A DNA stretch of 64,000 nt. Origin: an alpha proteobacterium IMCC14465 (GTDB taxonomy: Bacteria > Pseudomonadota > Alphaproteobacteria > RS24). Both the position numbers and the translations under genes were made by a program. The DNA lies in assembly GCA_000293845.2 (NCBI GenBank), contig ALYF01000003.1, forward strand, positions 310,001-374,000, written 5' to 3'. The notes under the pieces were generated by a model, which was not told the origin of the DNA, did no database searches, and worked only from the letters and a program-made list of their open reading frames with translations. The first letter of the stretch is position 1. Each line of letters starts with the position of its first letter. Positions 2,991 to 43,438 of the stretch are shown here, piece by piece.

Positions 2991-3177
2991 ACGCATGCGG
3001 TCACTTTAAGCTTGAACTCTCATAGATTTAAGCGCATTCTATAAACGTATCTTCTCTTCTGTCTCGTTTATAAATATTTCTAGGGTAAACATTCCCGGGC
3101 GCCTGCCATAACTTGCCATAAACGGATATTTATTCTCTTTCTAATTTGACAGAACACCCCCTTCAAAGAGTTAACCT

Positions 3178-4443
3178 ATGGAACAAATTAAGCTTCAGGA
3201 CTTAAAGTCTAAATCTCCAACCGAACTTTTGGCTTTGGCTGAAGAAAACGATATTGAAAACGCTTCAACGATGCGCAAACAGGATATGATGTTTGCTATT
3301 TTGAAAGAGCTTGCTGAACAAGGTATTTTCATTATTGGTGAAGGCGTGGTTGAAGTTTTACCGGATGGTTTTGGCTTTTTGCGCTCACCGGATGCAAATT
3401 ATCTTCCTGGGCCGGATGATATATATGTAAGCCCTTCACAAATAAGGCGTTTTTCACTTCGGACGGGAGATACGGTTGAAGGTGATATTCGTAGCCCAAA
3501 AGACGGTGAGAGATATTTTGCTCTTTTAAAAGTGAATAGCATTAATTTTGAAGACCCTGATAAAATTCGTCACAAGGTGAATTTCGACAACTTAACACCG
3601 CTCTATCCAGAAGAGCGCATATTGATGGAATTTGATAACCCTGCTGAAAAAGATCGCTCCTCCCGCATTATTGATATTGTTGCACCACTTGGTAAAGGCC
3701 AGCGGGCGCTGATTGTTGCCCCGCCCAGAACAGGTAAAACCGTCCTATTGCAAAATATTGCTAAATCAATTGCGGCTAATCACCCCGAATGTTACCTCAT
3801 CGTACTTTTGATTGATGAGCGTCCCGAAGAAGTGACAGATATGCAGCGTTCTGTTAGCGGCGAAGTGGTTTCATCAACCTTTGATGAACCGGCTGCACGC
3901 CATGTTCAAGTCGCTGAAATGGTGATTGAAAAAGCCAAAAGGCTGGTGGAGCACGGCCGTGACGTTGTTATTCTATTGGATAGCATCACACGCCTTGGGC
4001 GAGCTTATAACACGGTCGTGCCATCTTCTGGTAAGGTGCTTACTGGCGGTGTTGATGCGAACGCACTTCAAAGACCGAAGAGATTTTTCGGGGCGGCCAG
4101 AAACATTGAGCAGGGTGGGTCTTTGACCATTATTTCAACAGCCCTGATTGATACTGGTAGCCGGATGGATGAGGTTATCTTTGAAGAATTTAAAGGGACG
4201 GGTAACTCTGAAATTGTGCTGGACCGTAAGATATCCGACAAGCGTGTCTTTCCTTCCATCGATATAATGAAATCCGGTACACGCAAAGAGGAGCTTCTCA
4301 TTGATAAAGAAACCCTCTCAAAAATCTATGTGTTGCGTCGTATTCTTAATCCAATGGGAACGGTGGATGCTATTGAGTTCTTGCTCGACAAGCTCAAGCA
4401 AACCAAGACCAATGATGATTTCTTTGACTCTATGAATACCTAA
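3178..4443 (+). CDS. rho: Transcription termination factor Rho
   Basis: Rho is the hexameric RNA helicase that terminates transcription. The 421-residue protein shows, in order, the Rho N-terminal domain ([18 protein letters not shown]), the cold-shock-type RNA-binding domain ([22 protein letters not shown], about 64–86), Walker A APPRTGKT (181–188) and Walker B DVVILLDS followed by ITRLGRAYN. Length is standard. hemE–hemJ–rho is a conserved alphaproteobacterial order. The 187 bases upstream carry a TTGACA at about 3146 but no clear leader peptide or attenuator that I can support. Confidence 0.97.
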
Positions 4444-7603: not shown

Positions 7604-8938
7604 ATGACTATTTTTGCTTTATCCACCTCGCCGGGGCGCGGCGCGATTGCGATTATTCGTTTATCGGGCGACCAGACAGCCCCCATTCTTGAAAAGCTGA
7701 CCGGCAAGCCTGCCCCCGAAGCGCGTCAGGCATCACTGCGAATAATCACCGAACCAGAGACAGGTGATCCGATTGACTCCGGCCTTGTGCTGTATTTCCA
7801 AGCCCCGCATTCTTATACGGGTGAAGATATGGCAGAGCTGCATATTCATGGCGGCGTTGCGATTGTTGACCGCCTGCTTGACGTATTATCCGGCCTTGAA
7901 GGTCTCAGGCCTGCCGAGCCGGGGGAGTTCACCCGCCTTGCGGTGTTGAACGGGCGTATGGATCTTACTCAGGCTGAGGCTGTTGCAGATATGATTGATG
8001 CCGAAACAATGGCGCAGCAAAAGCAGGCTTTTCGCCAGATGCAGGGCGCGCTGGGCGTGCTTTATGAGAGCTGGCGACAAAAGCTCGCTACATCACTGGC
8101 GCATTTGGAGGCGGATATAGAGTTTGCCGATGAGGATTTGCCTGGTGGCATTGGGCAGGCGGTTCTGGGGGAGGTCGCCGCGCTCAGTGACGAGATAGCG
8201 GCGCATATACACGATGATAGAGGGCGAACACTGCGCCACGGCGTGGAAATTGCTATTATCGGCGCGCCGAATGTAGGTAAGTCGAGCTTGCTGAATCATA
8301 TCGCAGGGCGCGAGGCGGCGATCGTTTCTGCCCGTGCGGGTACAACCAGAGATATTGTTGAGGTGTCTTTAACACTTGGGGGTGTGCCCGCTTTGCTCGC
8401 AGATACAGCCGGCATCCGTGCGGCAGGTGACGAAATAGAAAGAGAGGGCGTACGCCGGGCGCTTAATAAGGCGTCGGAGGCGGATATCCGCCTTCATGTG
8501 ACAGCCTTTGGGGTGGCCGGAGATGAAACCACCTCTGATGAGGCGCGTTTTCAGGAGGGTGATTTATATATTGCCAATAAGCAAGATTTGGGCGAGACAT
8601 CGCGCCCGAACACGCTGAACGAGACAGACTTTTTTTGCGTTTCCGCGGAAACAGGTGCGGGCATGTCTCATCTTGTCGCGGCTCTGAATACAAGAGTTCA
8701 GACAAGCTTCGGCCTGACGGAACGCCCAGCCTTAACCCGAACCCGCCACCGCATTGCATTGCAGGCGGCGGATATTGCGCTAAAGCGGGGGCTTGAACGC
8801 GCTGAAACAGGCGCAGAGCTTGAATTGGTGGCAGAAGATTTACGCCTTGCCATGCGCGAAATCGGGCGTATCACCGGTGCGGTAGATGTTGAAAGCCTAC
8901 TCGATATTGTTTTTCGGGACTTCTGTATCGGTAAATAA
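7604..8938 (+). CDS. mnmE: tRNA uridine-5-carboxymethylaminomethyl(34) synthesis GTPase MnmE
   Basis: MnmE with MnmG modifies the wobble uridine of several tRNAs. The 444-residue protein has the N-terminal tetrahydrofolate-binding domain (TSPGRGAIAIIRLSG), helical domain, and an inserted G domain with G1 GAPNVGKS (220–227), RAGTTRD and DTAG (267–270), ending in the essential CIGK motif (441–444), where the catalytic cysteine sits. mnmG follows after 91 bases that contain a parS site. Upstream (7511–7554) lies a short imperfect 22-base tandem repeat. Confidence 0.96.
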   Translation: MTIFALSTSPGRGAIAIIRLSGDQTAPILEKLTGKPAPEARQASLRIITEPETGDPIDSGLVLYFQAPHSYTGEDMAELHIHGGVAIVDRLLDVLSGLEGLRPAEPGEFTRLAVLNGRMDLTQAEAVADMIDAETMAQQKQAFRQMQGALGVLYESWRQKLATSLAHLEADIEFADEDLPGGIGQAVLGEVAALSDEIAAHIHDDRGRTLRHGVEIAIIGAPNVGKSSLLNHIAGREAAIVSARAGTTRDIVEVSLTLGGVPALLADTAGIRAAGDEIEREGVRRALNKASEADIRLHVTAFGVAGDETTSDEARFQEGDLYIANKQDLGETSRPNTLNETDFFCVSAETGAGMSHLVAALNTRVQTSFGLTERPALTRTRHRIALQAADIALKRGLERAETGAELELVAEDLRLAMREIGRITGAVDVESLLDIVFRDFCIGK

Positions 8939-32305: not shown

Positions 32306-33262
32306 TTAATCGGGTGTGTCGCCAAGCAGCGCGGCGACCATGGCAACATCAATAATATCCTGCACAGCACAGCCACGGGATAAATCCATCCAGGGTTTGG
32401 GAAACCCGCCTAAAATAGGCCCGATTGCGCGTGCGCCCCCCAATTCCTGTGTAATTTTGTAGCCAATATTACCGGCATTGAGATCTGGAAAAATAAACAC
32501 ATTGGCTTTGCCTGCTACGGGGGAGTTTGGCGCTTTCTTAGCGCCAATATCAGGATTAATCGCCGCATCAAATTGTAACTCGCCATCAATGGTGAGCTGG
32601 GGGTTTTTTTGTTTCACCAGCGCCATGGCCTCAGTTACATTATCTATATCAGCATGTGCGGCAGAGCCTTTGGTAGAGAAAGAAAGCATGGCCACTTGTG
32701 GCACTTCACTGGTTAAGCGTTCATATGTTTCAGCTGTAAAGAGTGTAATATCCGCTAATTGCGTGGCGGTTGGATTGGGAATGACAGCGCAATCTCCATA
32801 GCCCCAAACACGTCCATCCGGCAGAACCATTAAAACCATGCTGGAAATGGTTTTTGTCCCATCTTTAACACCAAGGCCTTTAAAACCGGCCTTTAGGACA
32901 TTGGCAGTCGTTGCAATAGAACCTGCGACACCACCATCCACATAGCCCGTCGCTAGCAGGTAACAGCTCAGTAATAACGGGTTTGTTAGGGATTGCTCAA
33001 CTCGGTTGCGCTCAAGGCCTCTTTTGTTTTTCACATATTCATAGACCCGGTCTAGCCAGAGATTTTTATCAGAGTGGTCGTCAAATATTTCCGTGCCATT
33101 CGGTAGACCCGCATCTGATGTCAGAGCAACGGGTATCACCTCGCCACTTTGAAGTAACTGTTTGATTGCTTCTTGAATGCGTGGGTCGGATGTCTCAGGG
33201 AAAAGGATGCGCTTTTTACGCTTCTTAGCGCGCACATAAAGATTATTGATGATGTCAGTCAT
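32306..33262 (-). CDS. pta: Phosphate acetyl/butyryl transferase-like enzyme
   Basis: A 318-residue protein of the phosphotransacetylase fold: RILFPETSDPRIQEAI near the N-terminus, VDGGVAGSIATTANVLKA, MLSFSTKGSA, ELQFDAAINPD and the C-terminal VFIFPDLNAGNIGYK. It would interconvert acetyl-CoA and acetyl phosphate in the cytoplasm. The protein is the short, single-domain type. No acetate kinase is adjacent, so flux direction and the acyl substrate are open. The AtuA-type genes are 15 bases upstream on the same strand, suggesting co-transcription. Confidence 0.85.
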   Translation of the reverse strand: MTDIINNLYVRAKKRKKRILFPETSDPRIQEAIKQLLQSGEVIPVALTSDAGLPNGTEIFDDHSDKNLWLDRVYEYVKNKRGLERNRVEQSLTNPLLLSCYLLATGYVDGGVAGSIATTANVLKAGFKGLGVKDGTKTISSMVLMVLPDGRVWGYGDCAVIPNPTATQLADITLFTAETYERLTSEVPQVAMLSFSTKGSAAHADIDNVTEAMALVKQKNPQLTIDGELQFDAAINPDIGAKKAPNSPVAGKANVFIFPDLNAGNIGYKITQELGGARAIGPILGGFPKPWMDLSRGCAVQDIIDVAMVAALLGDTPD

Positions 33263-33277
33263 ATTTTATTGTCGAAA

Positions 33278-33631
33278 CTAGGTTTTTTTTATTGTTGTAA
33301 TTAGGCTTTCCTCAATATCAATGACCATATGCAAAATTGCAAGTCCATGCACCTTACCTTGCGCATCGGTAATGAGAGTTTCTGTGCCGCCGCCGCCAAG
33401 CGACTCCTCAAGAATAAAGTTAAATGCGTTTAAATTTGGCAGTTCATAACGTGTCACACCACCTAGCGCAATTTCGCTAAAATGCGCCGCAACGCGCGCG
33501 GCGGTCAATTCTTTGTCCAGATAGGCGTAAATTTCCGGTGATCTTGCAATGACCCCGACATTACTGCCATTGCCCTTATCACCTGAACGTGCAAGGGCAA
33601 TATCCATCAGCTTTATTTGCTTCGTCGCCAT
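33278..33631 (-). CDS. AtuA-like C-terminal ferredoxin-fold protein
   Basis: A 117-residue protein with IALARSGDKGNGSNVGVIARSPE and LPNLNAFNFILEESLGGG, the C-terminal domain normally fused to or following AtuA/DUF1446 proteins. Here it is a separate gene one base after the larger AtuA gene. The pair functions in degradation of acyclic terpenoid or related branched acids in Pseudomonas; the substrate here is unknown. Confidence 0.88.
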   Translation of the reverse strand: MATKQIKLMDIALARSGDKGNGSNVGVIARSPEIYAYLDKELTAARVAAHFSEIALGGVTRYELPNLNAFNFILEESLGGGGTETLITDAQGKVHGLAILHMVIDIEESLITTIKKT

Positions 33632-33632
33632 G

Positions 33633-35006
33633 CTATGCCTCCTCCACTTTTACAGCTGTTTTGATTTTGTCTTTGCCGATGAGCGCAGGCCAATAGCCAA
33701 CAACTTCTGAGGCGCGTGACCGCCCTGCCGCAAATCCAGTAATACCGGGCGGGCCGGAGGTCAAAACAGGTGCAATCTCGCTCGACATCACATTAAGCTT
33801 ATTGGCGTCCATGCCTTTAGCGCCAAGCCGCATCAGAATTTCATGAGGCTGGTCGGCACGTTCGACAATGCCCTTATAAAGAACATTGGAGCCGAATAAT
33901 TCTAAAAAGCGGTCTTCCTCGGGGATGTCCGCGCCGAGCATTTTCATGCGGGAAAACACCATGTCGGAGACAATATGCGCTTTTTCAATCGCATCCGGGC
34001 CACTAATGCTTAATGTTGCCAGTATTTTATAACCATTGGCATAGGACATGGAGACTTTGAAACTGTCTGTGGGCGGCAGACCTTTGATGCTATGAACCCG
34101 CACGCGGTCAGGGCCATCTTGCTCCATCTGAATGGTCGTAAAATCAGCAACACAATCAGGGCTGAGATAGCGCGATGGATCGCCAAGTTCATAAAGCAGT
34201 TGTGAGGTCACGCTTTCGACATTTATTAACCCGCCCGTGCCATCATGCTTGGTGACAATAAACGAGCCGTCCTCATAGGCCTCAACAACTGGAAAGCCGA
34301 TAGTGGCAAAATCTTTAACATCCCGCCAATCCGTATAATTGCCGCCCGTGCATTGGGGGCCACACTCAATAATATGTCCTAATACCGTGGCGGCGGCGAT
34401 TTTGTCGTAATCTTCAAAAGACCATCCAAACTCATAGGCGAGCGGCGCAACAGCAAGTGACGGGTCACTCGCGCGACCGGTGATGACAATATCTGCGCCC
34501 TGCTGAAGTGCCTCAACAATGGATTCAGCACCAATATAAACATTGGCACTGATAATATCACTTTTCACAGTATCTAAGGCCGCGCCGGTATCCATATTTA
34601 CCAGTGCTTCGCCCGCATTGTTCAATTCGTCCAACCTGTCGAGAATATTGTCACCTTCGACAATGCCGATGCGGACGCCCGATAGGCCGATTTCTGCAAG
34701 CGCTTGTTTTGTAGCCGCTAGGCAGGCCGGTGCATTGACGCCCGCCGCATTGGCAATGAGCTTGATGCCTTTATCTCTGCACTGGGGCATAATCATTTTG
34801 AGCATTTTGATAAAATCACGCGCATAGCCGGACTCAGGGTCACGCATTCTTTGTTTCTGCATGATGCTCATTGTTATTTCGGAGAGATAGTCGAAAGTCA
34901 GGTAATCGACGGGGCCTTCTTCTACAAGCCTTTTCGGGCCGAGGAGACTATCGCCCCAAAACCCCTGAGCATTAGCAACTCTTATCATTTTTTTGGGTGT
35001 ATTCAC
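33633..35006 (-). CDS. Acyclic terpene utilisation AtuA family protein (DUF1446)
   Basis: The 457-residue protein begins IRVANAQGFWGDSLLGPKRLVEEG and contains DYLTFDYLSEITMSIMQ and DIVITGRASDPSLAVAPLAYEFGW, hallmarks of DUF1446/AtuA. In Pseudomonas AtuA is needed for citronellol/geraniol catabolism; homologues are widespread in marine alphaproteobacteria with unproven substrates. It is the first gene of an apparent AtuA–AtuA-C–Pta operon, divergent from an MFS transporter across 131 bases, which may import its substrate. Confidence 0.9.
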   Translation of the reverse strand: MNTPKKMIRVANAQGFWGDSLLGPKRLVEEGPVDYLTFDYLSEITMSIMQKQRMRDPESGYARDFIKMLKMIMPQCRDKGIKLIANAAGVNAPACLAATKQALAEIGLSGVRIGIVEGDNILDRLDELNNAGEALVNMDTGAALDTVKSDIISANVYIGAESIVEALQQGADIVITGRASDPSLAVAPLAYEFGWSFEDYDKIAAATVLGHIIECGPQCTGGNYTDWRDVKDFATIGFPVVEAYEDGSFIVTKHDGTGGLINVESVTSQLLYELGDPSRYLSPDCVADFTTIQMEQDGPDRVRVHSIKGLPPTDSFKVSMSYANGYKILATLSISGPDAIEKAHIVSDMVFSRMKMLGADIPEEDRFLELFGSNVLYKGIVERADQPHEILMRLGAKGMDANKLNVMSSEIAPVLTSGPPGITGFAAGRSRASEVVGYWPALIGKDKIKTAVKVEEA

Positions 35007-35137
35007 GTATGTCTCCTGCCCTCAATAAGCCCACAATGTAAAAGCCCGCCCTTCAATGTCAATTATAAGTTTTCTGGGACGTGGCTGGCAGATTAAAGTA
35101 GGCTGGTGATGAATTCTAATTATAACATGGGTGAAAA

Positions 35138-36415
35138 ATGACTGGCGCACTTCCTCATCAGGGGAAAATATATTCTGGATGGATTGTTTTATCGGCCTGT
35201 TTCGTTTCAGCCATGCTGATTGTTGGCGCGACGATTTACAGCTTCCAGCTATTTGTGATTCCGGTAACGGAAGAGTTCGGCATTTCTCGGGCAACAGCCA
35301 ATAATGCCTATATTTCTATGCTGGTTGGGTTGGCGCTTTGGTCACCTTTGGTCGGGCGCTTGCTGGACAAATTTAACGCTAAATATGTGATTATGTTTGG
35401 CGCATTGTGTTTTGGCGGCGCTTTTACGCTTGTCGCTGTCGCGCAAAATCTGCTGGTTATGCTGGTTGGTATTTTTGTGATGCTGAGCATTGCGGTATGT
35501 TCTTGTGGGGGGCTTGCTGGTAACGCCGTGACCGTGCGTTGGTTTCAAAAACGCCGTGGACGCGCCCTGGGGATTATGTCTGTGACGTCCTCGGTTGGCG
35601 GCGCGATGATGGTGCCGATTGTTTCTTATCTTATTACGGCCTATGGCTGGCGAATGGCGATGATCATCACGGGTTGGTCAGTGGCGGTGATAATTTTTAT
35701 CTTGGTTGGGCTATTTGTCAGAGGCCGCCCCGTGCAGACTGATATTGATAATTTTGATGAATTTGACGTGCCTGAAGGTGGTCAAGAAAGTAGTCAGGAA
35801 AGTGGTGACGATAAAACCATGACCCTCAAGCAGATTGTCACCACCCGAAATTATTGGCTGGTGGCGATGGGGTGCGGCTTGTTGCTGGCGAGTGACCAAG
35901 CTGTCCTGACCTCAAAATTTCCGTTTCTGGTGGATAGCGGCCTGACGGTCTTGCAGGCCACCACAATTATTTCAACCATGACAATTTCTGCTGTTGCCGG
36001 AAAGTTGATTATCGGCTTCATGGCAGATTATTTTGACGTCAGGCATTTATTCGCCTTAGTCGCCTTATTTCATTTCCTTTTGCTTGCCGTGTTTTTAATG
36101 CGGCCAGACTATTGGAGCTTGTTGATTTTCGTCTCGATTTTCGGCGCGGCGGTTGGCGGGATTTATCCCGTCTGGTCATCACTAACGGCATCGGCCTTTG
36201 GCCCTGCCAGTATTGGGTCTGTTTTGGGCTTTATGGCGCCGGTCATGCAGGGGCTGTCTATTATTTTCGTCGGCTTTATCGGCGAGGTGCATAGCCAAAC
36301 AGGGGCTTATGACGTTGCGTTTCAAGGTTTTATGGTAACCGTTGTGCTGTCTGTTTTCTTTATCTATGCCATGCGGGTGCCGCCAAAATCATTTGGCGTG
36401 CCAATCAAAGGATAA
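35138..36415 (+). CDS. MFS transporter (oxalate/formate-antiporter-like)
   Basis: A 425-residue inner-membrane protein with about twelve hydrophobic segments and the loop motif RRGRALGIMSVTSSVGGA, seen in the oxalate:formate and monocarboxylate subfamily. A Gln/Ser/Glu-rich hydrophilic loop (EGGQESSQESGDD) lies between the two six-helix halves. Divergent from the AtuA operon, so the substrate may be an organic acid used by it; this is inference from position. Confidence 0.85.
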   Translation: MTGALPHQGKIYSGWIVLSACFVSAMLIVGATIYSFQLFVIPVTEEFGISRATANNAYISMLVGLALWSPLVGRLLDKFNAKYVIMFGALCFGGAFTLVAVAQNLLVMLVGIFVMLSIAVCSCGGLAGNAVTVRWFQKRRGRALGIMSVTSSVGGAMMVPIVSYLITAYGWRMAMIITGWSVAVIIFILVGLFVRGRPVQTDIDNFDEFDVPEGGQESSQESGDDKTMTLKQIVTTRNYWLVAMGCGLLLASDQAVLTSKFPFLVDSGLTVLQATTIISTMTISAVAGKLIIGFMADYFDVRHLFALVALFHFLLLAVFLMRPDYWSLLIFVSIFGAAVGGIYPVWSSLTASAFGPASIGSVLGFMAPVMQGLSIIFVGFIGEVHSQTGAYDVAFQGFMVTVVLSVFFIYAMRVPPKSFGVPIKG

Positions 36416-36489
36416 ACCTAAAAGCAAGCTAAAGGGCTTGCAATCGCTTTTGCTTTGGGGCATAACCCGCTATGCTGTTTGACAGTAAT

Positions 36490-36564
36490 GCGGGCGTAGC
36501 TCAGGGGTAGAGCGCAACCTTGCCAAGGTTGATGTCGTGAGTTCGAATCTCATCGCCCGCTCCA
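36490..36564 (+). tRNA. tRNA-Gly (GCC anticodon)
   Basis: A complete cloverleaf: acceptor GCGGGCG pairs with CGCCCGC (36554–36560), D arm GCTC/GAGC, anticodon stem CAACC/GGTTG with loop TTGCCAA (anticodon GCC at 36522–36524), T arm GTGAG-TTCGAAT-CTCAT, discriminator T and encoded CCA (36562–36564). Its 3' part is duplicated at 43156–43209, marking it as the attachment site of the island. Confidence 0.97.
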
Positions 36565-36570
36565 TTTCTT
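36517..36570 (+). repeat. attL: 54-base core repeat in the tRNA-Gly 3' end
   Basis: The repeat starts in the 5' side of the anticodon stem and continues through the T arm, CCA and TTTCTT. It equals 43156–43209 base for base. Insertion in the anticodon region with the intact tRNA kept on the integrase side is typical of tyrosine-recombinase islands. Confidence 0.93.
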
Positions 36571-36673
36571 TCCAGAAATCTCTATAAATTGTTCAGGATT
36601 TTCAATGTCTTGTGGGATGTTGAGTGCTTGGCCTAATTTGGCGGCATCCTGTCGGCCCTTCTGAAATCCAACA

Positions 36674-36694
36674 TTGGCACAGTTATGTCACAGT
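36674..36694 (+). repeat. Copy 1 of a 21-base repeat upstream of the integrase
   Basis: The 21-mer holds two CACAGT hexamers 11 bases apart (36679–36684 and 36690–36695 region), one helical turn. It ends just before the integrase ribosome site GTGGAG. An exact copy lies at 43012–43032 near attR, and a diverged copy at 41944–41964. Candidate integrase arm-type binding site or operator. Confidence 0.75.
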
Positions 36695-36704
36695 GGAGAT
36701 TAAG

Positions 36705-37658
36705 ATGGCGACAATCAGAAACAGAAATGGCAGATGGCATGTCCAAATTCGCAAGGCCAATGCAAGACCCATTAGCCGCACTTTTACGCTTAGAAAAGAT
36801 GCAGAGATATGGGCAAGAGAAACAGAGAGGCACATAGAGCTGGAGGGCTGCGTGGTGTCCAAAAGAGAAATGCTGGCAGACACACTGTCAGTTCTTATTT
36901 CTCGATATGTAAAAGAAGAAGGCCGGTACAACAGGTCATATAAAGTAGAGAAATACTATCTCAATCAAATCTGTAATGAGCCGTTTGCAAACATCCCCCT
37001 ATCCCAGCTTGGCCCCCAAGACATTCAAGACTGGGTGAGCCTATTAAGAAAAACACACAAGCCTTCCTCTATTGCTCGCCGCCTTGGTTTAATTTCAAGA
37101 GTTTTAAACATTGCGATAAAAAGATGGGGCTATTCAATTAACAATCATGCCGCTTATGTTTCAAAGCCTTCTGTGACCCCGCCTCGTATAGACAGAATAG
37201 ATAAAGACACACTCGAAATTCTTTATAACCCTGAAGGCGTGTTTGGCTGGATGGTCGTGCTTGCATTGGAAACAGGCATGAGAAGGGGGGAAATAATTGG
37301 GGTGCGATGGGCTGACTATTTCCCAGAAAAGCGGGTCTTACAGCTTCACATCACCAAGAATGGATACCCAAGGTTTATCCCCCTCTCCCCAAAGGCTGCA
37401 GAGGCAATTGAGAATGGTGACAGAACACAAGAATATATATTTCCTATGACAGGAAATGCGGTCTACCTGGCTTGGAGAAGTTTAAAGAAGAAACACAATA
37501 TTGAAGGTATTAGGTTTCATGACCTAAGACACGAAGCTATCAGTCGCATGTTTGACGAGGGGTTAACTGTGCCAGAAGTAGCAAGCATCAGCGGTCACAG
37601 AACAGTGAGTATGTTGTTTCGGTATGCTCACACTCAAAATATTAAGTTAGTTATTTAA
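36705..37658 (+). CDS. Tyrosine recombinase (island integrase)
   Basis: I start at the ATG at 36705 (MATIRNRNGRWHVQIRK), preceded by GTGGAG; 317 residues. The N-terminal arm-binding and core-binding (SAM-like) regions are followed by the catalytic domain with Arg in ETGMRRGEI, a Lys in ITKNGYPRFIPL, HDLRHEAIS (His, Arg), SGHR and the nucleophile Tyr in FRYAHT. It would excise and insert the island at tRNA-Gly. The catalytic set looks complete, so the enzyme may be active. A decayed copy of its first codons lies at 41975–42000. Confidence 0.93.
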   Translation: MATIRNRNGRWHVQIRKANARPISRTFTLRKDAEIWARETERHIELEGCVVSKREMLADTLSVLISRYVKEEGRYNRSYKVEKYYLNQICNEPFANIPLSQLGPQDIQDWVSLLRKTHKPSSIARRLGLISRVLNIAIKRWGYSINNHAAYVSKPSVTPPRIDRIDKDTLEILYNPEGVFGWMVVLALETGMRRGEIIGVRWADYFPEKRVLQLHITKNGYPRFIPLSPKAAEAIENGDRTQEYIFPMTGNAVYLAWRSLKKKHNIEGIRFHDLRHEAISRMFDEGLTVPEVASISGHRTVSMLFRYAHTQNIKLVI

Positions 37659-37690
37659 TCAAATGAACTTCAGCCGCTATTATGCTGCAT

Positions 37691-37710
37691 CCCCTTTATT
37701 TATAAAAGGG
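37691..37710 (+). terminator. Possible weak terminator after the integrase
   Basis: CCCTTT and AAAGGG (37692–37710) form a stem 33 bases past the integrase stop, but no clear T-run follows. The remaining bases up to 37942 hold another small dyad (AGCTTC…GAAGCT near 37837–37857) and no supported gene. Confidence 0.35.
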
Positions 37711-37942
37711 AATTATATGTAGTATAGAGATTTTCATGAGGAACTAAAAAAAATTTCATAAATGCCCATTCAAGCCACATATGACGCTCTAGAATGGCTT
37801 TCTTAACAGGTGGTGCGATTGTATATTTGACATAGAAAGCTTCTCACGAAGCTTCTGTGGCGTTCCTGACCATCATATAATTTTAATATTGCTCCGATAA
37901 ACTCTCATTGTTAAGATTTTTATTCATAAGGAGGGACACAAA

Positions 37943-38254
37943 ATGAGACTGAAATATTTCTTATCGCTCATAATTATAATTAGCTTAACTTCGCTAGCTT
38001 CTGCCCAATCTGATAGAGATTTGGATAACGATGGCATTTGGGACTATGGACGTGGTGGCACAGATAGAGACTTGGATAATGACGGCATGTGGGACTCCAA
38101 TCGAGGCGGGACAGATAGAGACATAGATAATGACGGCATGTGGGACTATGGCCGTGGCGGCACTGACAGAGACATGGACAACGATGGCATCTGGGACTCA
38201 AATAAAGGTGGAACAGATAGAGACTTAGATAACGATGGAATTTGGGATAGATAA
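37943..38254 (+). CDS. Secreted acidic repeat protein with DxDNDG units
   Basis: A 103-residue protein consisting of a signal peptide (MRLKYFLSLIIIISL to ASAQS, about 23 residues) and then only tandem repeats: four full 17-residue units of the form DRDxDNDGxWDxxxGGT and a fifth of 12 residues. The units alternate YGRGGT and SN(R/K)GGT endings. The DxDNDG core resembles calcium-binding thrombospondin type 3 and dockerin-like loops, so calcium-dependent folding outside the cytoplasm is plausible. A strong AGGAGGGA ribosome site precedes the ATG. I do not know a characterised homologue. Confidence 0.85.
   Translation: MRLKYFLSLIIIISLTSLASAQSDRDLDNDGIWDYGRGGTDRDLDNDGMWDSNRGGTDRDIDNDGMWDYGRGGTDRDMDNDGIWDSNKGGTDRDLDNDGIWDR
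38012..38251 (+). repeat. 51-base tandem repeat array coding the DxDNDG units
   Basis: Units at 38012–38062, 38063–38113, 38114–38164, 38165–38215 and partial 38216–38251. Odd and even units differ in their last third, so the array probably grew by duplicating a 102-base pair of units. Third-position differences between units show that it is not recent. Confidence 0.85.
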
Positions 38255-38295
38255 GTTTATTGGTTTCCTAAAATAAAAAAAGGTTAGGGCTAGAG

Positions 38296-39714
38296 GTGGA
38301 AAATATTTCACGCCCCTTAGATGTTCATAAGTGGTCCGACCATCCCGAAGCAAATAAGTTTGTGGATGTTGTCTTTGAAAGCTACTTCCCACAACAATTT
38401 AAAAGTAATCGCAGCTCACGTAAGAGTTTCAGAACAGACCTGAAGGTTCTACTACTAGACCTTTATGTGTCTTGGAATGAAGACCCAAAGCAAACTATTG
38501 GCGTTGGAATGTCGAACTCTTTTTACAAGATGGATAGCCGATATAACGCTCTACACATTTCTTATAAGTTAATATCTATCATCAAAGAACTCTCTAAGAC
38601 TGGTCTAATAGGCTTAAAACCTGGCTCAGAGTGGTCAGGTAAAGTTAGTCGTATTTGGCCAAAAGCAAAGCTTATAAAGCTATTTGAGGGCGTTAAGTTT
38701 GGTGTTGAAGACATCAAACCTCTGGTGGAACGTGAATGCATTATCCTCAGAAATAAAAATAAGAAGGATATTGAGTATGAAGAGGCGGATTATATTCACC
38801 AAATGAGAGAGCATTTAAGGGATTATAACGAACTTCTTCATAGAACCTTCATAGATATACCCTCCCTAGATAAACCAATTATTCAAAAGAAAGGGGATAA
38901 GAACAGTATTCGCATCACTCAGAATAATAAGTTTGTCAGGAGAATATTTCACAACAGCACCTTCAAAGAAGGTGGAAGATATTATGGAGGTTGGTGGCAA
39001 AATATACCTAAAGAATTTAGGAGAGAGATTTACATCAATGACACACCAACCATTGAGGATGATTACTCAGCTCTGCATCTGATGTTGGTCTACAGTAAAT
39101 TGGGTCTAGAATATGACTGGAAAGAAGACCCTTATCATATCCCAATTGAGTTTATTAATTCTGAAGAAGAAGAAAGACTGGTTGGTAAACTATTCCTACT
39201 TACAGCACTTAATGCAAAGACAAAGCAATCAGGCTTCAAGGCTGCTAGAAGTGAATTCACAGACAACGACATAAGATATCCTGGTAAATTTACAGATAAG
39301 TTCCTAAATAATTATCTAAACAAAGTAATCAACAAACACCCACCATTAGAAGAATACTTATGATCAAATGCTGGTGTTGAGTTAATGAATATTGACAGTC
39401 AAATTACAGAGAAGATTGTAAAGAGATTTACCAAGAAGAAGATACCAATACTTTGCTTACATGATAGTTTTATAGTTCCAGTTGAATATGATGACGAACT
39501 AAGAACACAAATGCTTAAGTCAATTAAAGAGGTAAGCGGTAACAACAACATACAAATTAAAAGAAAGAATATAGGTCTAAATCAAATAAATAAGTGGAAG
39601 TATATTGATAGAGAATATTACTTATCCAACATCAAAGAGGTAGGGAATAAAAAAGTAAAAAGAACCAAAGGATATGAACTAAGAAAGAAGAAGTTCTATA
39701 ATCTAAAATCGTAA
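38296..39714 (+). pseudogene. Polymerase-like / replication-type protein gene interrupted by one in-frame TGA
   Basis: A 473-codon frame starting at GTG 38296 is open except for a single TGA at 39361–39363; the downstream part (ATG at 39385) continues in the same frame. The upstream part has RRIFHNSTFKEGGRYYGGWW followed by QNIPKEFRR, then EDDYSALHLMLVYSKLG; the downstream part has NIDSQITEKIV and CLHDSFIVP. The DYSALH and LHDSF motifs resemble motifs A and C (DYSxIELR, VHDE) of family A polymerase palms, and similar proteins occur as uncharacterised plasmid/phage genes. The likely job is replication of the mobile island. Either a nonsense mutation, readthrough or two-subunit expression is possible. 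Confidence 0.7.
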
Positions 39715-39767
39715 GTAGAAGATGTATGTACTATTCCATTACCAGTAAATTTATATGGCATTAATTG

Positions 39768-39998
39768 ATGAAACCTGAAGACATTAAAATATACTTCATG
39801 CTTGGTTTGATTGTTGTCATTGTATGGACACTGGCTTTTGTAACATTGTTAGTTATTCCTTGGTTCATTATCTACGCTAATGAGAACTTTTTTAGGTCTC
39901 TGGGTTTTATTGGTTCTGATTTAAATGACATCAAAGTATTTGCAGGAATTATTGTCTCAGCTTTGGTCGCCGCAGCAGTCTCAAGATTTGTTAATTGA
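39768..39998 (+). CDS. Small two-helix membrane protein, unknown
   Basis: A 76-residue protein with two hydrophobic segments: about residues 10–35 (MLGLIVVIVWTLAFVTLLVI) and about 55–74 (FAGIIVSALVAAAVSRF). I prefer the ATG at 39768 over a TTG one codon earlier. No known family recognised. Its stop (TGA, 39996–39998) is one base from the start of the MORN-like gene, so the two are likely co-translated. Confidence 0.6.
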   Translation: MKPEDIKIYFMLGLIVVIVWTLAFVTLLVIPWFIIYANENFFRSLGFIGSDLNDIKVFAGIIVSALVAAAVSRFVN

Positions 39999-39999
39999 T

Positions 40000-41130
40000 A
40001 TGAAAATGAAACAACTACTCCTCACCATCGCACTGCTTTTCTCGACGCCAGCACTTGCTTTAGGCAATGGTTTGCAAGGCCGAGTTGATGGCAATAAAGA
40101 AGTCATAGCAAATTTCGTTAATGGAAAAATGAATGGCTGGTCGGCAACTTATGATGGTGATGACACCTATTATATTAAATATCTAAATGGCTCGAGACTT
40201 GAAGGCGTAATCATTCGAAATGGTTTCGTAAAGATTAGGTTCAAGCAAAATAATGGCAATAATGTTTTAGGAGCAATTTATCTATCTGACGGGAGGGTTT
40301 TCAAAGGTAAGTTCGACCTCGGAGAGAATAGCAAGTTCGGTTTATGGAAATTATCAAATCAAAAACTTAATGGAGTAATCACCTATCCCACCCAATTCAA
40401 AGAAAGAAAATATTACGGCAAAGTAGAGTTTTGGAGAGGCAAAGAAGTTGATAGGGATGGTTTTGGAGTAGTTGAATACGAAGACGGCAAATTAGAGTCT
40501 GGTGATTACCTAAGAGAATTTGTTGGTAAGTCTCAGAAAATGAGTCCAGCTACAAGCGCAATTGTAGGGGTGCTTACTCTGGGATTAACGGCGGCAAGTC
40601 AGGCCTCGGATAGGCTTTCACAAGAAAAATTAATACGTGAGATGAAAGCCATTGAGAATGAAGTGAATGTCTTTTTAGATAGCTTTACCTATGAAGACGA
40701 AGTTAAGAAACTTGAAGTAGCTTATTACGAAAAGTCCTCAAAAGAAGAGGAGAAAAAAACAAACCTAGAAATGAAAAAATACAAATCTCAATGCAAGGCA
40801 TTTGGATACGTTGAATTTAATAAGGATGGTAGCCCATCATCAGATTTCAATGCATGTGTTAAGGAGGCTTATTTTAAGGCTGAAGAGTTAAGGGTTTTAA
40901 AGAGTGAATTGCAAAATAAAAAGAACTCACAAGCTAGTGGTTTAAATAACTTAGTAGTATCAGGTAACAAAGAAAATAAAACAAAACCCACATTATCAAA
41001 TAAAGAACTTAGGGACTTAGGCTCAAAAATGATGGGTTATGAAAACTTTAATGACTTAATAGATACACGCCCCAGAAGGACGCCTCCTGGAACCAGCAGA
41101 CTTCCTCCAGGAGCATACAGATTAGATTAG
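40000..41130 (+). CDS. Secreted MORN-like repeat protein
   Basis: I start at ATG 40000, giving 376 residues with a signal peptide (MKMKQLLLTIALLFS to PALALG); an upstream extension in the same frame overlaps the membrane-protein gene. The N-terminal half has MORN-like stretches (YLNGSRLEGVIIRNG, LSDGRVFKGKFDLG, YYGKVEFWRG, GFGVVEYEDGKLESGDYL). A hydrophobic stretch (AIVGVLTLGLTAAS) and a coiled-coil Lys/Glu region follow, and the tail is Pro/Arg rich (RPRRTPPGTSRLPPG). The function is unknown; surface or periplasmic location is likely. Confidence 0.7.
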   Translation: MKMKQLLLTIALLFSTPALALGNGLQGRVDGNKEVIANFVNGKMNGWSATYDGDDTYYIKYLNGSRLEGVIIRNGFVKIRFKQNNGNNVLGAIYLSDGRVFKGKFDLGENSKFGLWKLSNQKLNGVITYPTQFKERKYYGKVEFWRGKEVDRDGFGVVEYEDGKLESGDYLREFVGKSQKMSPATSAIVGVLTLGLTAASQASDRLSQEKLIREMKAIENEVNVFLDSFTYEDEVKKLEVAYYEKSSKEEEKKTNLEMKKYKSQCKAFGYVEFNKDGSPSSDFNACVKEAYFKAEELRVLKSELQNKKNSQASGLNNLVVSGNKENKTKPTLSNKELRDLGSKMMGYENFNDLIDTRPRRTPPGTSRLPPGAYRLD

Positions 41131-41164
41131 TCGCAGTTCGTTGTGTCTATATATTTATCAGAGT

Positions 41165-41422
41165 TTAACTATCACCCGCTTCATCAGACTTATCGTCATC
41201 AGCTTCTTCATCGCTCTCTTCATGATGACCAATAGGTGTGAACTTAGGGTCTAACTCTTCAATATTGTTTCCATGACAATGTCTTGCACCCTCAACTTCG
41301 CCCCATTGAGCACAGTTAGTCCAACAATAGTGGCATCCATCTGCAGCTGTTCCGCCAGGATGAGCGTTAACAAGATTGACTGAACCAATTAAAAGTAAAA
41401 ATACAAAAGCAGCTCTTAGCAT
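41165..41422 (-). CDS. Small secreted Cys/His-rich protein (YHYH-like)
   Basis: An 85-residue protein with a signal peptide (MLRAAFVFLLLIGSVNLVNA), then HPGGTAADGCHYCWTNCAQW and EGARHCHG, a short Cys/His cluster resembling the YHYH domain of small exported proteins, and an acidic tail rich in Asp and Glu. A metal-binding role is plausible from the residues. A GGAGG ribosome site precedes the ATG at 41422. Its leader contains repeat A. Confidence 0.7.
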   Translation of the reverse strand: MLRAAFVFLLLIGSVNLVNAHPGGTAADGCHYCWTNCAQWGEVEGARHCHGNNIEELDPKFTPIGHHEESDEEADDDKSDEAGDS

Positions 41423-41430
41423 ATCTATAC

Positions 41431-41510
41431 CTCCAAACTATGAGAAACCTCATTATTAGCTGATAATGTGTCAGGCTCAATATTTATAAATCTATCTGGC
41501 TGTGTTTTTT
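41431..41510 (-). repeat. Repeat A: promoter-like 80-base segment (copy 1)
   Basis: Starts CTCCAAACTATGAGAAAC and matches 42329–42407 at all but about six positions and one gap. On the minus strand it holds TTGAGC, about 16 bases, then TAATAAT, a plausible promoter, placed directly upstream of the YHYH-like gene. Confidence 0.75.
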
Positions 41511-41561
41511 TGGGTGGGTGTTGGTTTGTTTTAACATGAGATGAGGTGTATACAGGTGGGT

Positions 41562-41912
41562 ATGCCGAGACTTATTGCACTAATTTGTAAAAAACCTTCA
41601 ATCTCTGAAGAAGACTTTAAATCTTATTACGAAAGCAATCACGCTCCTTTGATTGAGAGTTTATTTCCTACCTTAACAGGATACAGAAGAACCTACCTTC
41701 TTAAATCTAATATGCTTAATGATACGTTACCGCTGGAGTCCGATGGTGTTCCTAGCCAATATAACGTCATAACAGAGCTTACTTTTGATGATGAGGAAGG
41801 TTTAAATCAATTTTTTGAAATGGGAAAAAATAAAGAAGTTATTGAAGCTATCAGGAATGATGAAGCAAACTTCTTAGATGGTGAGCAGACCATTATGTAT
41901 CGTGTCGACTAA
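41562..41912 (+). CDS. EthD domain protein
   Basis: A 116-residue protein starting MPRLIALICKKPSISEEDF, with SYYESNHAPLIESLFPTLTGYRR, the pattern of the EthD dimeric alpha/beta-barrel family; some members help degrade ethers or act as monooxygenase-like accessory proteins. I use the ATG at 41562 after AGGTGGG; an ATG seven codons upstream is possible. It lies between repeat A and the integrase remnant. The substrate is unknown. Confidence 0.78.
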   Translation: MPRLIALICKKPSISEEDFKSYYESNHAPLIESLFPTLTGYRRTYLLKSNMLNDTLPLESDGVPSQYNVITELTFDDEEGLNQFFEMGKNKEVIEAIRNDEANFLDGEQTIMYRVD

Positions 41913-41919
41913 TCCTTTT

Positions 41920-42000
41920 TGTCAGCCCTTCTGAAATCCAGCATTGGCATAGCTGTCTCACAGTGGAGACTAAGGTGGCGACAATAAGTAACAGAAATAG
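41920..42000 (+). pseudogene. Decayed copy of the integrase 5' end
   Basis: These 81 bases align without gaps to 36650–36730 with 70 identities, covering the integrase upstream region and the first nine codons. The start is GTG here (41975) and the frame closes after 14 codons, running into the DUF1330 gene end. It shows a second integrase gene once existed or that this segment was copied. Confidence 0.8.
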
Positions 42001-42002
42001 GC

Positions 42003-42290
42003 TTATAAGCCTTCAATAATCATTAAGTCTGTATCCACACCATTATCTCTTATTGCTTTTGCAGCCTGGTACTCGTCACTAAAATAGAATTTTTCAGCGG
42101 CGGCTTTGCTTTCAAACTCAAGCAAGGTTACCAAGCCTGTTAGACTCCCTTCATGTCTGTCAGCACCAGGCCCTCGTGCCAATATTTTTCCACCAAACTT
42201 TTCTATAAGTGGAACTGCGGCTTCGCTAAATTCTTTGAAACAATTTTCGTCCTGCACTCTGAGGTTGGCAACCAAATACCCTTTAGACAT
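42003..42290 (-). CDS. DUF1330 family protein
   Basis: A 95-residue protein starting MSKGYLVANLRVQDENCF, with GGKILARGPGADRHEGS and LLEFESKAAAEKFYFSDEYQAAK, matching DUF1330, a dimeric ferredoxin-like fold of unknown role. The start at 42290 follows GGGAGACACTT; a longer frame to 42377 would cross the duplicated leader. Its promoter would lie in repeat A'. Confidence 0.82.
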   Translation of the reverse strand: MSKGYLVANLRVQDENCFKEFSEAAVPLIEKFGGKILARGPGADRHEGSLTGLVTLLEFESKAAAEKFYFSDEYQAAKAIRDNGVDTDLMIIEGL

Positions 42291-42328
42291 AAGTGTCTCC
42301 CAAAAAAATAAAGTTATCGCCAAGTTTT

Positions 42329-42407
42329 CTCCAACTATGAGAAACCCCATTATTAGCTGACTATGTGTCAGGCTCAATATTTATATATCTATCTGTCTGT
42401 GTTTTTT
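42329..42407 (-). repeat. Repeat A': promoter-like segment (copy 2)
   Basis: Second copy of the 41431–41510 segment, keeping the minus-strand TTGAGC and TAATAAT elements. It is upstream of the leftward DUF1330 gene, just as copy 1 is upstream of the YHYH-like gene. Confidence 0.75.
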
Positions 42408-42468
42408 GTGGAGGGGGGGCAGGCTTGGCCCAGCAATTTGGCATTGGCATATATAAATTCGGGAACGC

Positions 42469-42888
42469 TTAAATTGCGTCTGGCGGTCTATTTTCTGACT
42501 GAATAACTTCCGAGGCTGTCTGGACTGTTTCAGTAATAACCTCGGCGACGACTTCGGCGGCTTTGCTAACCACCTCTGTCGCAACAAGAGGGGCTGTTTC
42601 TGGTTTTGAAGCCTGGTAAATGTTTTGGTGAGAAAGAAGCCACCAGCCTCTTACACTCGACAAAAACCAAAAGCCATTGGCAAAAGACAAGACTAAAAGC
42701 CCTGCTGACGCTGTTGCAAGAAGTGAAAACATGCTGCCAATGGCCATACATATAAAGCCATATCTGCGGCGAATTGGGGACAGGCTTGACAATAGCGGGG
42801 CTGCCAAGGCTGTCCCAAAAATGACCGAACCCAGTTGGATTATTATAATAATGTTAGAGAGCAGCGACCATTCCATTTTGGCAACCAT
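42469..42888 (-). CDS. Unknown membrane protein with Val/Glu-rich tail
   Basis: A 139-residue protein of no family I recognise. Hydrophobic segments lie at about 9–32, 45–70 and possibly 69–82, followed by a soluble tail rich in Ala, Val and Glu (EVVSKAAEVVAEVITETVQTA) that could form an amphipathic helix. Last gene of the island before attR. Met5 is an alternative start. Confidence 0.55.
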   Translation of the reverse strand: MVAKMEWSLLSNIIIIIQLGSVIFGTALAAPLLSSLSPIRRRYGFICMAIGSMFSLLATASAGLLVLSFANGFWFLSSVRGWWLLSHQNIYQASKPETAPLVATEVVSKAAEVVAEVITETVQTASEVIQSENRPPDAI

Positions 42889-43011
42889 CAGGCATCTTGA
42901 TTGAGCCTATGAAAGCTATATGCTCCTAAAATTTTTATTTTTCAATACTAATTTTCGGTTCAAGTAATTATTTTTATTTGGGCTGTGGGGAGGAAGGGTC
43001 GGCGGCAAGAT

Positions 43012-43032
43012 TTGGCACAGTTATGTCACAGT
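43012..43032 (+). repeat. Copy 2 of the 21-base repeat, near attR
   Basis: Identical to 36674–36694, with the same two CACAGT hexamers 11 bases apart, in the same orientation and 123 bases before the attR core. No integrase sequence follows it. Confidence 0.75.
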
Positions 43033-43155
43033 TGCTTCAGCAAATAATGTTTTCATTTAAACTCTGGGCAAATTTTGCTAGTCTGTAATTGTTGGATTTC
43101 TGCGGGTTAGAGCGCATTCCGCTTTAGCGGATGGTGAGCCGGGTACCGGCGAACG

Positions 43156-43209
43156 ACCTTGCCAAGGTTGATGTCGTGAGTTCGAATCTCATCGCCCGCT
43201 CCATTTCTT
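43156..43209 (+). repeat. attR: second copy of the tRNA-Gly 3' end
   Basis: Exact 54-base copy of 36517–36570. The sequence left of it is island DNA with a GCCGG-GTA-CCGGC hairpin (43138–43150), so no functional second tRNA is formed. Bases 43210–43438 to its right carry no supported gene. Confidence 0.92.
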
Positions 43210-43438
43210 GATTTAGAAATGGAGCTGTTACAGCCCACTTTCCGTGACAATTGAAAAACCATCCTATTTTGAATAACTTCCAACCTGACGTTGCATTATA
43301 CAATGGATGAATTTAGCATTTCAAAGGGTTGGCGGTTTAATAGTAATCAAAGGTAGGTTTTAAAATGCGTTCAGTCATACCAGTTATAATAGCCTTATTT
43401 TTCTCAAAGCCTGCTTGAACTAGAGTTGTTAAGCTGAC

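Follow-up and report, generated by a model that had tools for sequence, protein, structure and literature searches.

A likely site-specific integrative element in tRNA-Gly of the marine alphaproteobacterium IMCC14465, with an interrupted TV-Pol gene and signal-peptide-headed cargo

The 64,000-nucleotide stretch analysed here (the window; contig ALYF01000003.1 of assembly GCA_000293845.2, positions 310,001 to 374,000) comes from the alphaproteobacterium IMCC14465 and holds a 6.6-kb AT-rich island 3' of an intact tRNA-Gly gene, bracketed by a 54-bp exact direct repeat. This island is likely a site-specific integrative element of the kind that pairs a TV-Pol polymerase with a lambda-type integrase, set in tRNA-Gly and carrying, among its cargo, a secreted-protein gene joined to a 47-bp signal-peptide-coding module. 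With its TV-Pol gene cut by a nonsense codon, the window copy is probably excisable yet replication-defective. A preliminary description had proposed a mobile unit in tRNA-Gly, and this is supported by the repeat, the integrase, an unoccupied site in one relative and, in another, a reduced copy that has kept the same two ends. That overall picture of the island stands, although it overlooked both the split polymerase gene with its nonsense codon and a 21-bp repeat inside the two ends. The relatives used for comparison, G001 to G005, belong to the same genus (PS1 clade, marine), and G000 denotes the window's own genome.

The element in tRNA-Gly and its unoccupied site

The integration target is the tRNA-Gly (gcc) gene at 36490..36564 (coordinates refer to the window, and features lie on the plus strand unless stated). 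It is intact by ARAGORN, scores 68.9 bits in Rfam and is also found in the five genus relatives. The attL core (36517..36570) and the attR core (43156..43209) are identical at 54 of 54 positions and lie 6639 bp apart from start to start. The repeated sequence consists of the final 48 nt of tRNA-Gly and six further nucleotides. At the right end the core is preceded by unrelated DNA and overlaps a hybrid tRNA-like sequence (43127-43203); this hybrid scores 24.9 bits against an Rfam cut-off of 29 and was ruled out as a functional gene on that score. The G+C content of the interval is mostly 32-40%, compared with about 47-51% in the left flank. The exact core repeats, intact tRNA and AT-rich cargo of the preliminary description were therefore borne out, as was the absence of capsid, relaxase and secretion genes, none of which was found in the unit with Pfam, PHROGs or NCBIfam. 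A defence-gene library gave no match to the window proteins tested.

A search of relatives for an empty tRNA-Gly site, in which 36570 is joined to 43210, had been proposed as a check, and G005 has such a site. Locus L040 3077-6632 of that genome forms one continuous match to window 33008-36570 plus 43156-43251, and the final part of the match (43210..43251) aligns to the flank directly 3' of tRNA-Gly in G005. A second relative, G002, retains a shortened form of the element: after its tRNA-Gly, the left end of the window element (up to 36689) is fused to the right end (42425-43141) and a degenerate core. This 830-bp remnant has no integrase and keeps both ends of the window element. A small element in G004 (L085 7632-9459) carries a copy of the core and a right end 88% identical to that of the window. 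In G001 and G005 cassette arrays follow immediately after tRNA-Gly. The DNA after tRNA-Gly in G003 is unrelated to the window; the element is absent there, and this locus was not used for the junction. Given these differing occupants in G001 to G005, tRNA-Gly is an integration hotspot and the window unit is one occupant among several.

The tyrosine integrase of 317 aa (36705..37658) is complete, as had been claimed, matching PF00589 (1e-22) and phrog_1 (1e-52) and carrying the R...HxLRH...Y signature. A 21-bp direct repeat (TTGGCACAGTTATGTCACAGT) lies inside both ends in exact copies at 36674..36694 and 43012..43032, with a score of 21 against a shuffle maximum of 10, and a one-mismatch copy of the right site is kept in the G002 remnant. 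Each site consists of two half-sites in direct orientation, spaced by roughly one turn of the helix; in the left site these are two CACAG half-sites 11 bp apart. The same layout, each time with its own sequences, recurs in three more tRNA islands of the genus (24.5 against a shuffle maximum of 11 in L052, 20.5 against 10 in L050 and 12 against 10 in L048). We regard the 21-bp repeats as candidate arm-type sites that are probably bound by the integrase, which would insert the circular form of the element by recombination at the 54-bp core, in the 3' half of tRNA-Gly, and leave the tRNA intact. With an unoccupied site at the sequence level and defined candidate integrase sites, the unit offers a clean mobile element open to testing, from a streamlined marine lineage that has received little study. 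A further island with an integrase of the same family (L049, G000 C3:803000-822000) holds a primase-helicase gene and a cluster resembling metal efflux genes.

An interrupted TV-Pol gene and the state of the island

Two open reading frames in the same frame, 38296-39363 and 39385-39714, both match phrog_4756 (5e-29 and 3e-13) and together make up one TV-Pol family polymerase/primase gene (38296..39714) with a single in-frame TGA at 39361-39363. Translated through the stop, the gene product can be aligned with homologues that come from several families of alphaproteobacteria, and R228, D256, D278, R294xxxK298 and D390 are invariant in an alignment with seven relatives. Both palm metal-binding aspartates (D256 and D390), the fingers aspartate (D278) and the R294-K298 motif are kept, and R228 would correspond to the hairpin arginine; these are the residues that define TV-Pols (PMC2579912). 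An AlphaFold2 model reached a pLDDT of 66 overall, with palm and fingers mostly above 80, and its top Foldseek matches were family A DNA polymerases of the Pol I fold (E 1e-4, probability 1.0). A search of the PDB by sequence gave no match. In IMG/VR the polymerase sequence by itself gave none either, and a search with the alignment found four distant relatives.

An integrase lies on the same fetched locus as the TV-Pol homologue in L050, L101, L103, L109, L111 and L099, a linkage already described for TV-Pols (PMC2579912). That work (Iyer et al. 2008) reported standalone minimal Pol I core polymerases beside lambda-type integrases in alphaproteobacteria, and the window unit shares this arrangement together with the catalytic aspartate pair, fingers aspartate and RxxxK motif. 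It differs in its defined tRNA-Gly att site and arm repeats, its nonsense-mutated TV-Pol, its cargo of secreted-protein cassettes and its lack of a D5 helicase. Two of these loci show further features. The IMG/VR contig L109 has two TV-Pol-like genes (3087-4397 and 7816-8835) beside a DNA methyltransferase gene and an integrase. A second TV-Pol gene of the window's own genome (L099 1322-5309, G000 C7) adjoins tRNA-Leu, with fragments that match the window integrase at 87% and 83% and another integrase gene.

The TGA precedes motif C (H389 D390) and so splits the two catalytic aspartates. Since the truncated product is without the second of them, this copy is not expected to replicate itself; in intact copies the polymerase/primase would probably replicate the excised form. 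An interrupted TV-Pol is also in keeping with a decayed remnant, in which an old integration has become a stable, immobile genomic island. The same can be said of the integrase 5'-end remnant at 41920..41998 (87% identical to 36650-36728) and the 83-bp duplication around the EthD and DUF1330 genes, both of which are signs of past rearrangement in the island, and of the mere 830 bp left in G002. The full-length integrase with its catalytic residues, the perfectly matched att cores and the identical arms all speak against decay, which we regard as possible but doubtful. We prefer an integrative element that has probably lost replication and kept its capacity for excision, and that may be transferred by phage.

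A plausible but less likely alternative, already raised in the preliminary description, is a phage satellite: an island induced by phage and packaged with the aid of a helper, with the secreted proteins as host-fitness cargo. Its size and the absence of capsid genes would suit a satellite, and sister islands carry a DUF5681 gene that resembles a terminase small subunit (phrog_2538, 7e-7), although this match is weak and the packaging role putative. One of these islands, L084, encodes an arm-binding integrase, a small helix-turn-helix protein and an AAA ATPase, as in P4-type satellites. However, genes of the terminase-like, capsid-remodelling and AlpA-like kinds are all missing from the window unit, and IMG/VR contains no exact copy of the module. 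The published PICMI and P4-like satellites (PMC10803314) are likewise small marine integrative islands without capsid genes. PICMIs sit next to fis in Vibrionaceae, whereas the window unit occupies tRNA-Gly in a PS1-clade alphaproteobacterium and is not a PICMI; nor does it carry AlpA or a P4-like primase.

In description the window unit also resembles the tycheposons of marine bacteria. Their broad definition, as given in PMC10872708, comprises a tRNA border, a tyrosine recombinase and cargo, all of which the window unit has, and it shares the streamlined marine host and the 4-200 kb size range.

Two of the sister islands are described here in their own right. The 8.1-kb P4-like element L084 221-8371 (G002 C6) is bounded by a 54-bp tRNA-Arg-like repeat, at which the contig ends. 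Besides the genes named above it carries T5orf172, DUF5681, a P-box repeat and cassettes that include the window's MORN-like gene. The island L050 1658-13325 (G001 C3), bounded by a 69-bp tRNA-Ser repeat, encodes Cas9 beside a CRISPR array of about 13 repeats, while neither cas1 nor cas2 was seen; it also carries an integrase, a TV-Pol gene and signal-peptide cassettes.

The 47-bp signal-peptide module

The module (MKQLLLTIALLFSTPA) lies at 40006..40052, where it encodes MKxLLLTIALLFSTPA at the head of a MORN-like gene (40000-41130) and forms a cassette junction. A profile search of the fetched genus loci found 27 copies. By genome, copies number 1 in G000, 13 in G001, 2 in G002, 3 in G004 and 4 in G005, with a partial match in one other genus. 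Across five genomes, some 20 genes that for the most part have nothing else in common begin with the module, and they stand in arrays on a number of tRNA islands. In L047, for example, the small genes lying between tRNA-Val and an integrase are parted by seven copies. The arrays of G001, G002, G004 and G005 begin at a 53-bp repeat, the P-box, on the other side of which lies a DUF5681 gene that faces away. In the window the P-box (43283..43329) lies just outside attR and is followed directly by a degenerate terminal module (MRSVIPVIIALFFSKPA stop; 43365..43418), which aligns with L040 8681-8730. By this comparison, the DNA outside attR is the counterpart of the G005 array locus, emptied of its cassettes.

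Conservation is concentrated in the module itself. Identity between copies is 0.77, 0.77 and 0.59 over its successive thirds, against about 0.30 in the flanks. As a control, the first 47 nt were compared in 33737 non-homologous pairs of open reading frames drawn from the same loci as the module copies; 58 pairs shared at least 34 bases, and all 58 were module copies. Homology blocks between arrays also tend to stop here: 11 of 44 block ends fall inside the module and two more within 6 nt of it, where about 7% would be expected, although the ends are not fully independent and the significance of this excess serves as a guide only. Individual cases show the same pattern. The DNA match of the window's MORN-like gene to G002, at 95.7% identity, begins at the module. 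A SnoaL gene occurs both in the G001 array at tRNA-Gly and in the G005 array at tRNA-Val, and the match ends just past the module. G004 and G005 have their first cassette in common, and it is followed by the module and then by differing genes.

That the module is simply a signal peptide conserved within a single family of secreted paralogues, and no recombination handle, is quite improbable: its codon positions do show coding constraint (identity 0.70, 0.80 and 0.63), but the bodies downstream belong to unrelated families (Adhesin_E, Sel1, SOUL, TPR and MORN-like), the third-position value is far above that of the flanks, homology blocks stop at the module, and some copies run into a stop codon at the junction with the next gene or immediately ahead of it (L040 7393 and L047 14879, and L040 8681, which stands alone at an array end). 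Because these last copies do not serve as signal peptides, a role for the module as DNA is favoured over protein selection alone.

The module thus has the look of a recombination handle through which captured genes acquire an export signal. Its position at the head of many unrelated genes, behind the promoter-like P-box of sister islands, suggests that cassettes are probably exchanged from island to island by recombination at the module. Such recombination, most simply RecA-dependent, would exchange the cassettes and supply both a start codon and an export signal; a site-specific integrase reaction at the module may also take place. This suggests a simple route by which captured genes are made secreted and the exported repertoire is reshuffled between islands. 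More tentatively, and with considerable doubt, the DUF5681, P-box and cassette arrays of the PS1 clade might form a gene-capture system distinct from integrons. Here the coding 47-bp module would combine recombination junction, start codon and export signal, the inserted genes would be co-transcribed and their products secreted, and integrase islands of several kinds would carry the arrays from one tRNA site to another.

The arrays resemble those of integrons in that unrelated promoterless genes, parted by a short repeat, stand behind one leader. They differ in that the repeat is coding and shows no attC-like folding (z from +1.0 to -1.3), and in that the integrase is tied to tRNA att sites. 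The window integrase is of the phrog_1 type and scores 44 bits against a cut-off of 220 for NF040815 ('site-specific tyrosine recombinase/integron integrase', XerA-type). General family scans identified no IntI, and no search aimed at IntI was made. A comparison by eye of the module with the tRNA att core revealed no convincing likeness. In the Mycoplasma vpma/vsp systems (PMC2268961) recombination likewise takes place in the shared 5' region of surface-protein genes, and a tyrosine recombinase gene lies close by; there, however, inversion switches expression at one locus, whereas here different islands and genomes carry different cassettes and no inversion was observed. We found no matching signal-peptide-coding cassette junction in the literature on bacteria.

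Several points weigh against our interpretation of the island and its module. Excision is predicted from sequence. The right flank that defines the unoccupied site in G005 is only 42 bp long, because the cassette array comes next in that genome. The activity of the TV-Pol is assigned through its family, with modest overall model confidence, and its stop may reflect an error in sequencing. Only one copy of the module is present in the window, plus the degenerate one outside the island. Furthermore, ordinary homologous recombination could account for the spread of the module, or protein-level selection for its persistence.

Other cargo genes

The preliminary description called the cargo mostly unfamiliar, which holds only in part: the central gene is a recognisable TV-Pol, and EthD and DUF1330 genes are present. 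Its suggestion of a surface-function module is no more than hinted at, by two secreted proteins, one of which belongs to the genus-wide signal-peptide cassette family. This is the product of the MORN-like cassette gene (40000..41130), whose repeats were assigned by eye and which matches the G002 array gene in L084. A predicted secreted protein encoded at 37943..38254 has about five 17-residue repeats of the D-x-D-N-D-G type and no homologue in the 27 relatives searched. At the DNA level, four to five 51-bp tandem repeats span 38012-38266 and encode the DxDNDG-type motifs, which weakly recall thrombospondin type 3 repeats (E 0.035). A small membrane protein with no family above cut-off is encoded at 39768..39998.

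To the right of the MORN-like gene lie genes for a YHYH-domain secreted protein (41165..41422, minus strand; NF033223, 30.9 bits against a cut-off of 30), an EthD-family protein (41562..41912; 3.5e-14) and a DUF1330 protein (42003..42290, minus strand; 4e-24). The stretch containing EthD (41529-41916) has a counterpart with 92% identity at another place in G004. A membrane protein (42469..42888, minus strand) is encoded in the element's conserved right end, and 42425-43141 is 85% identical to the G002 remnant. The 83-bp repeat comprises a 5' region at 41436..41518 (minus strand), upstream of the YHYH gene, and a second copy, 90% identical, at 42333-42415 upstream of the DUF1330 gene; the two copies bracket the EthD stretch.

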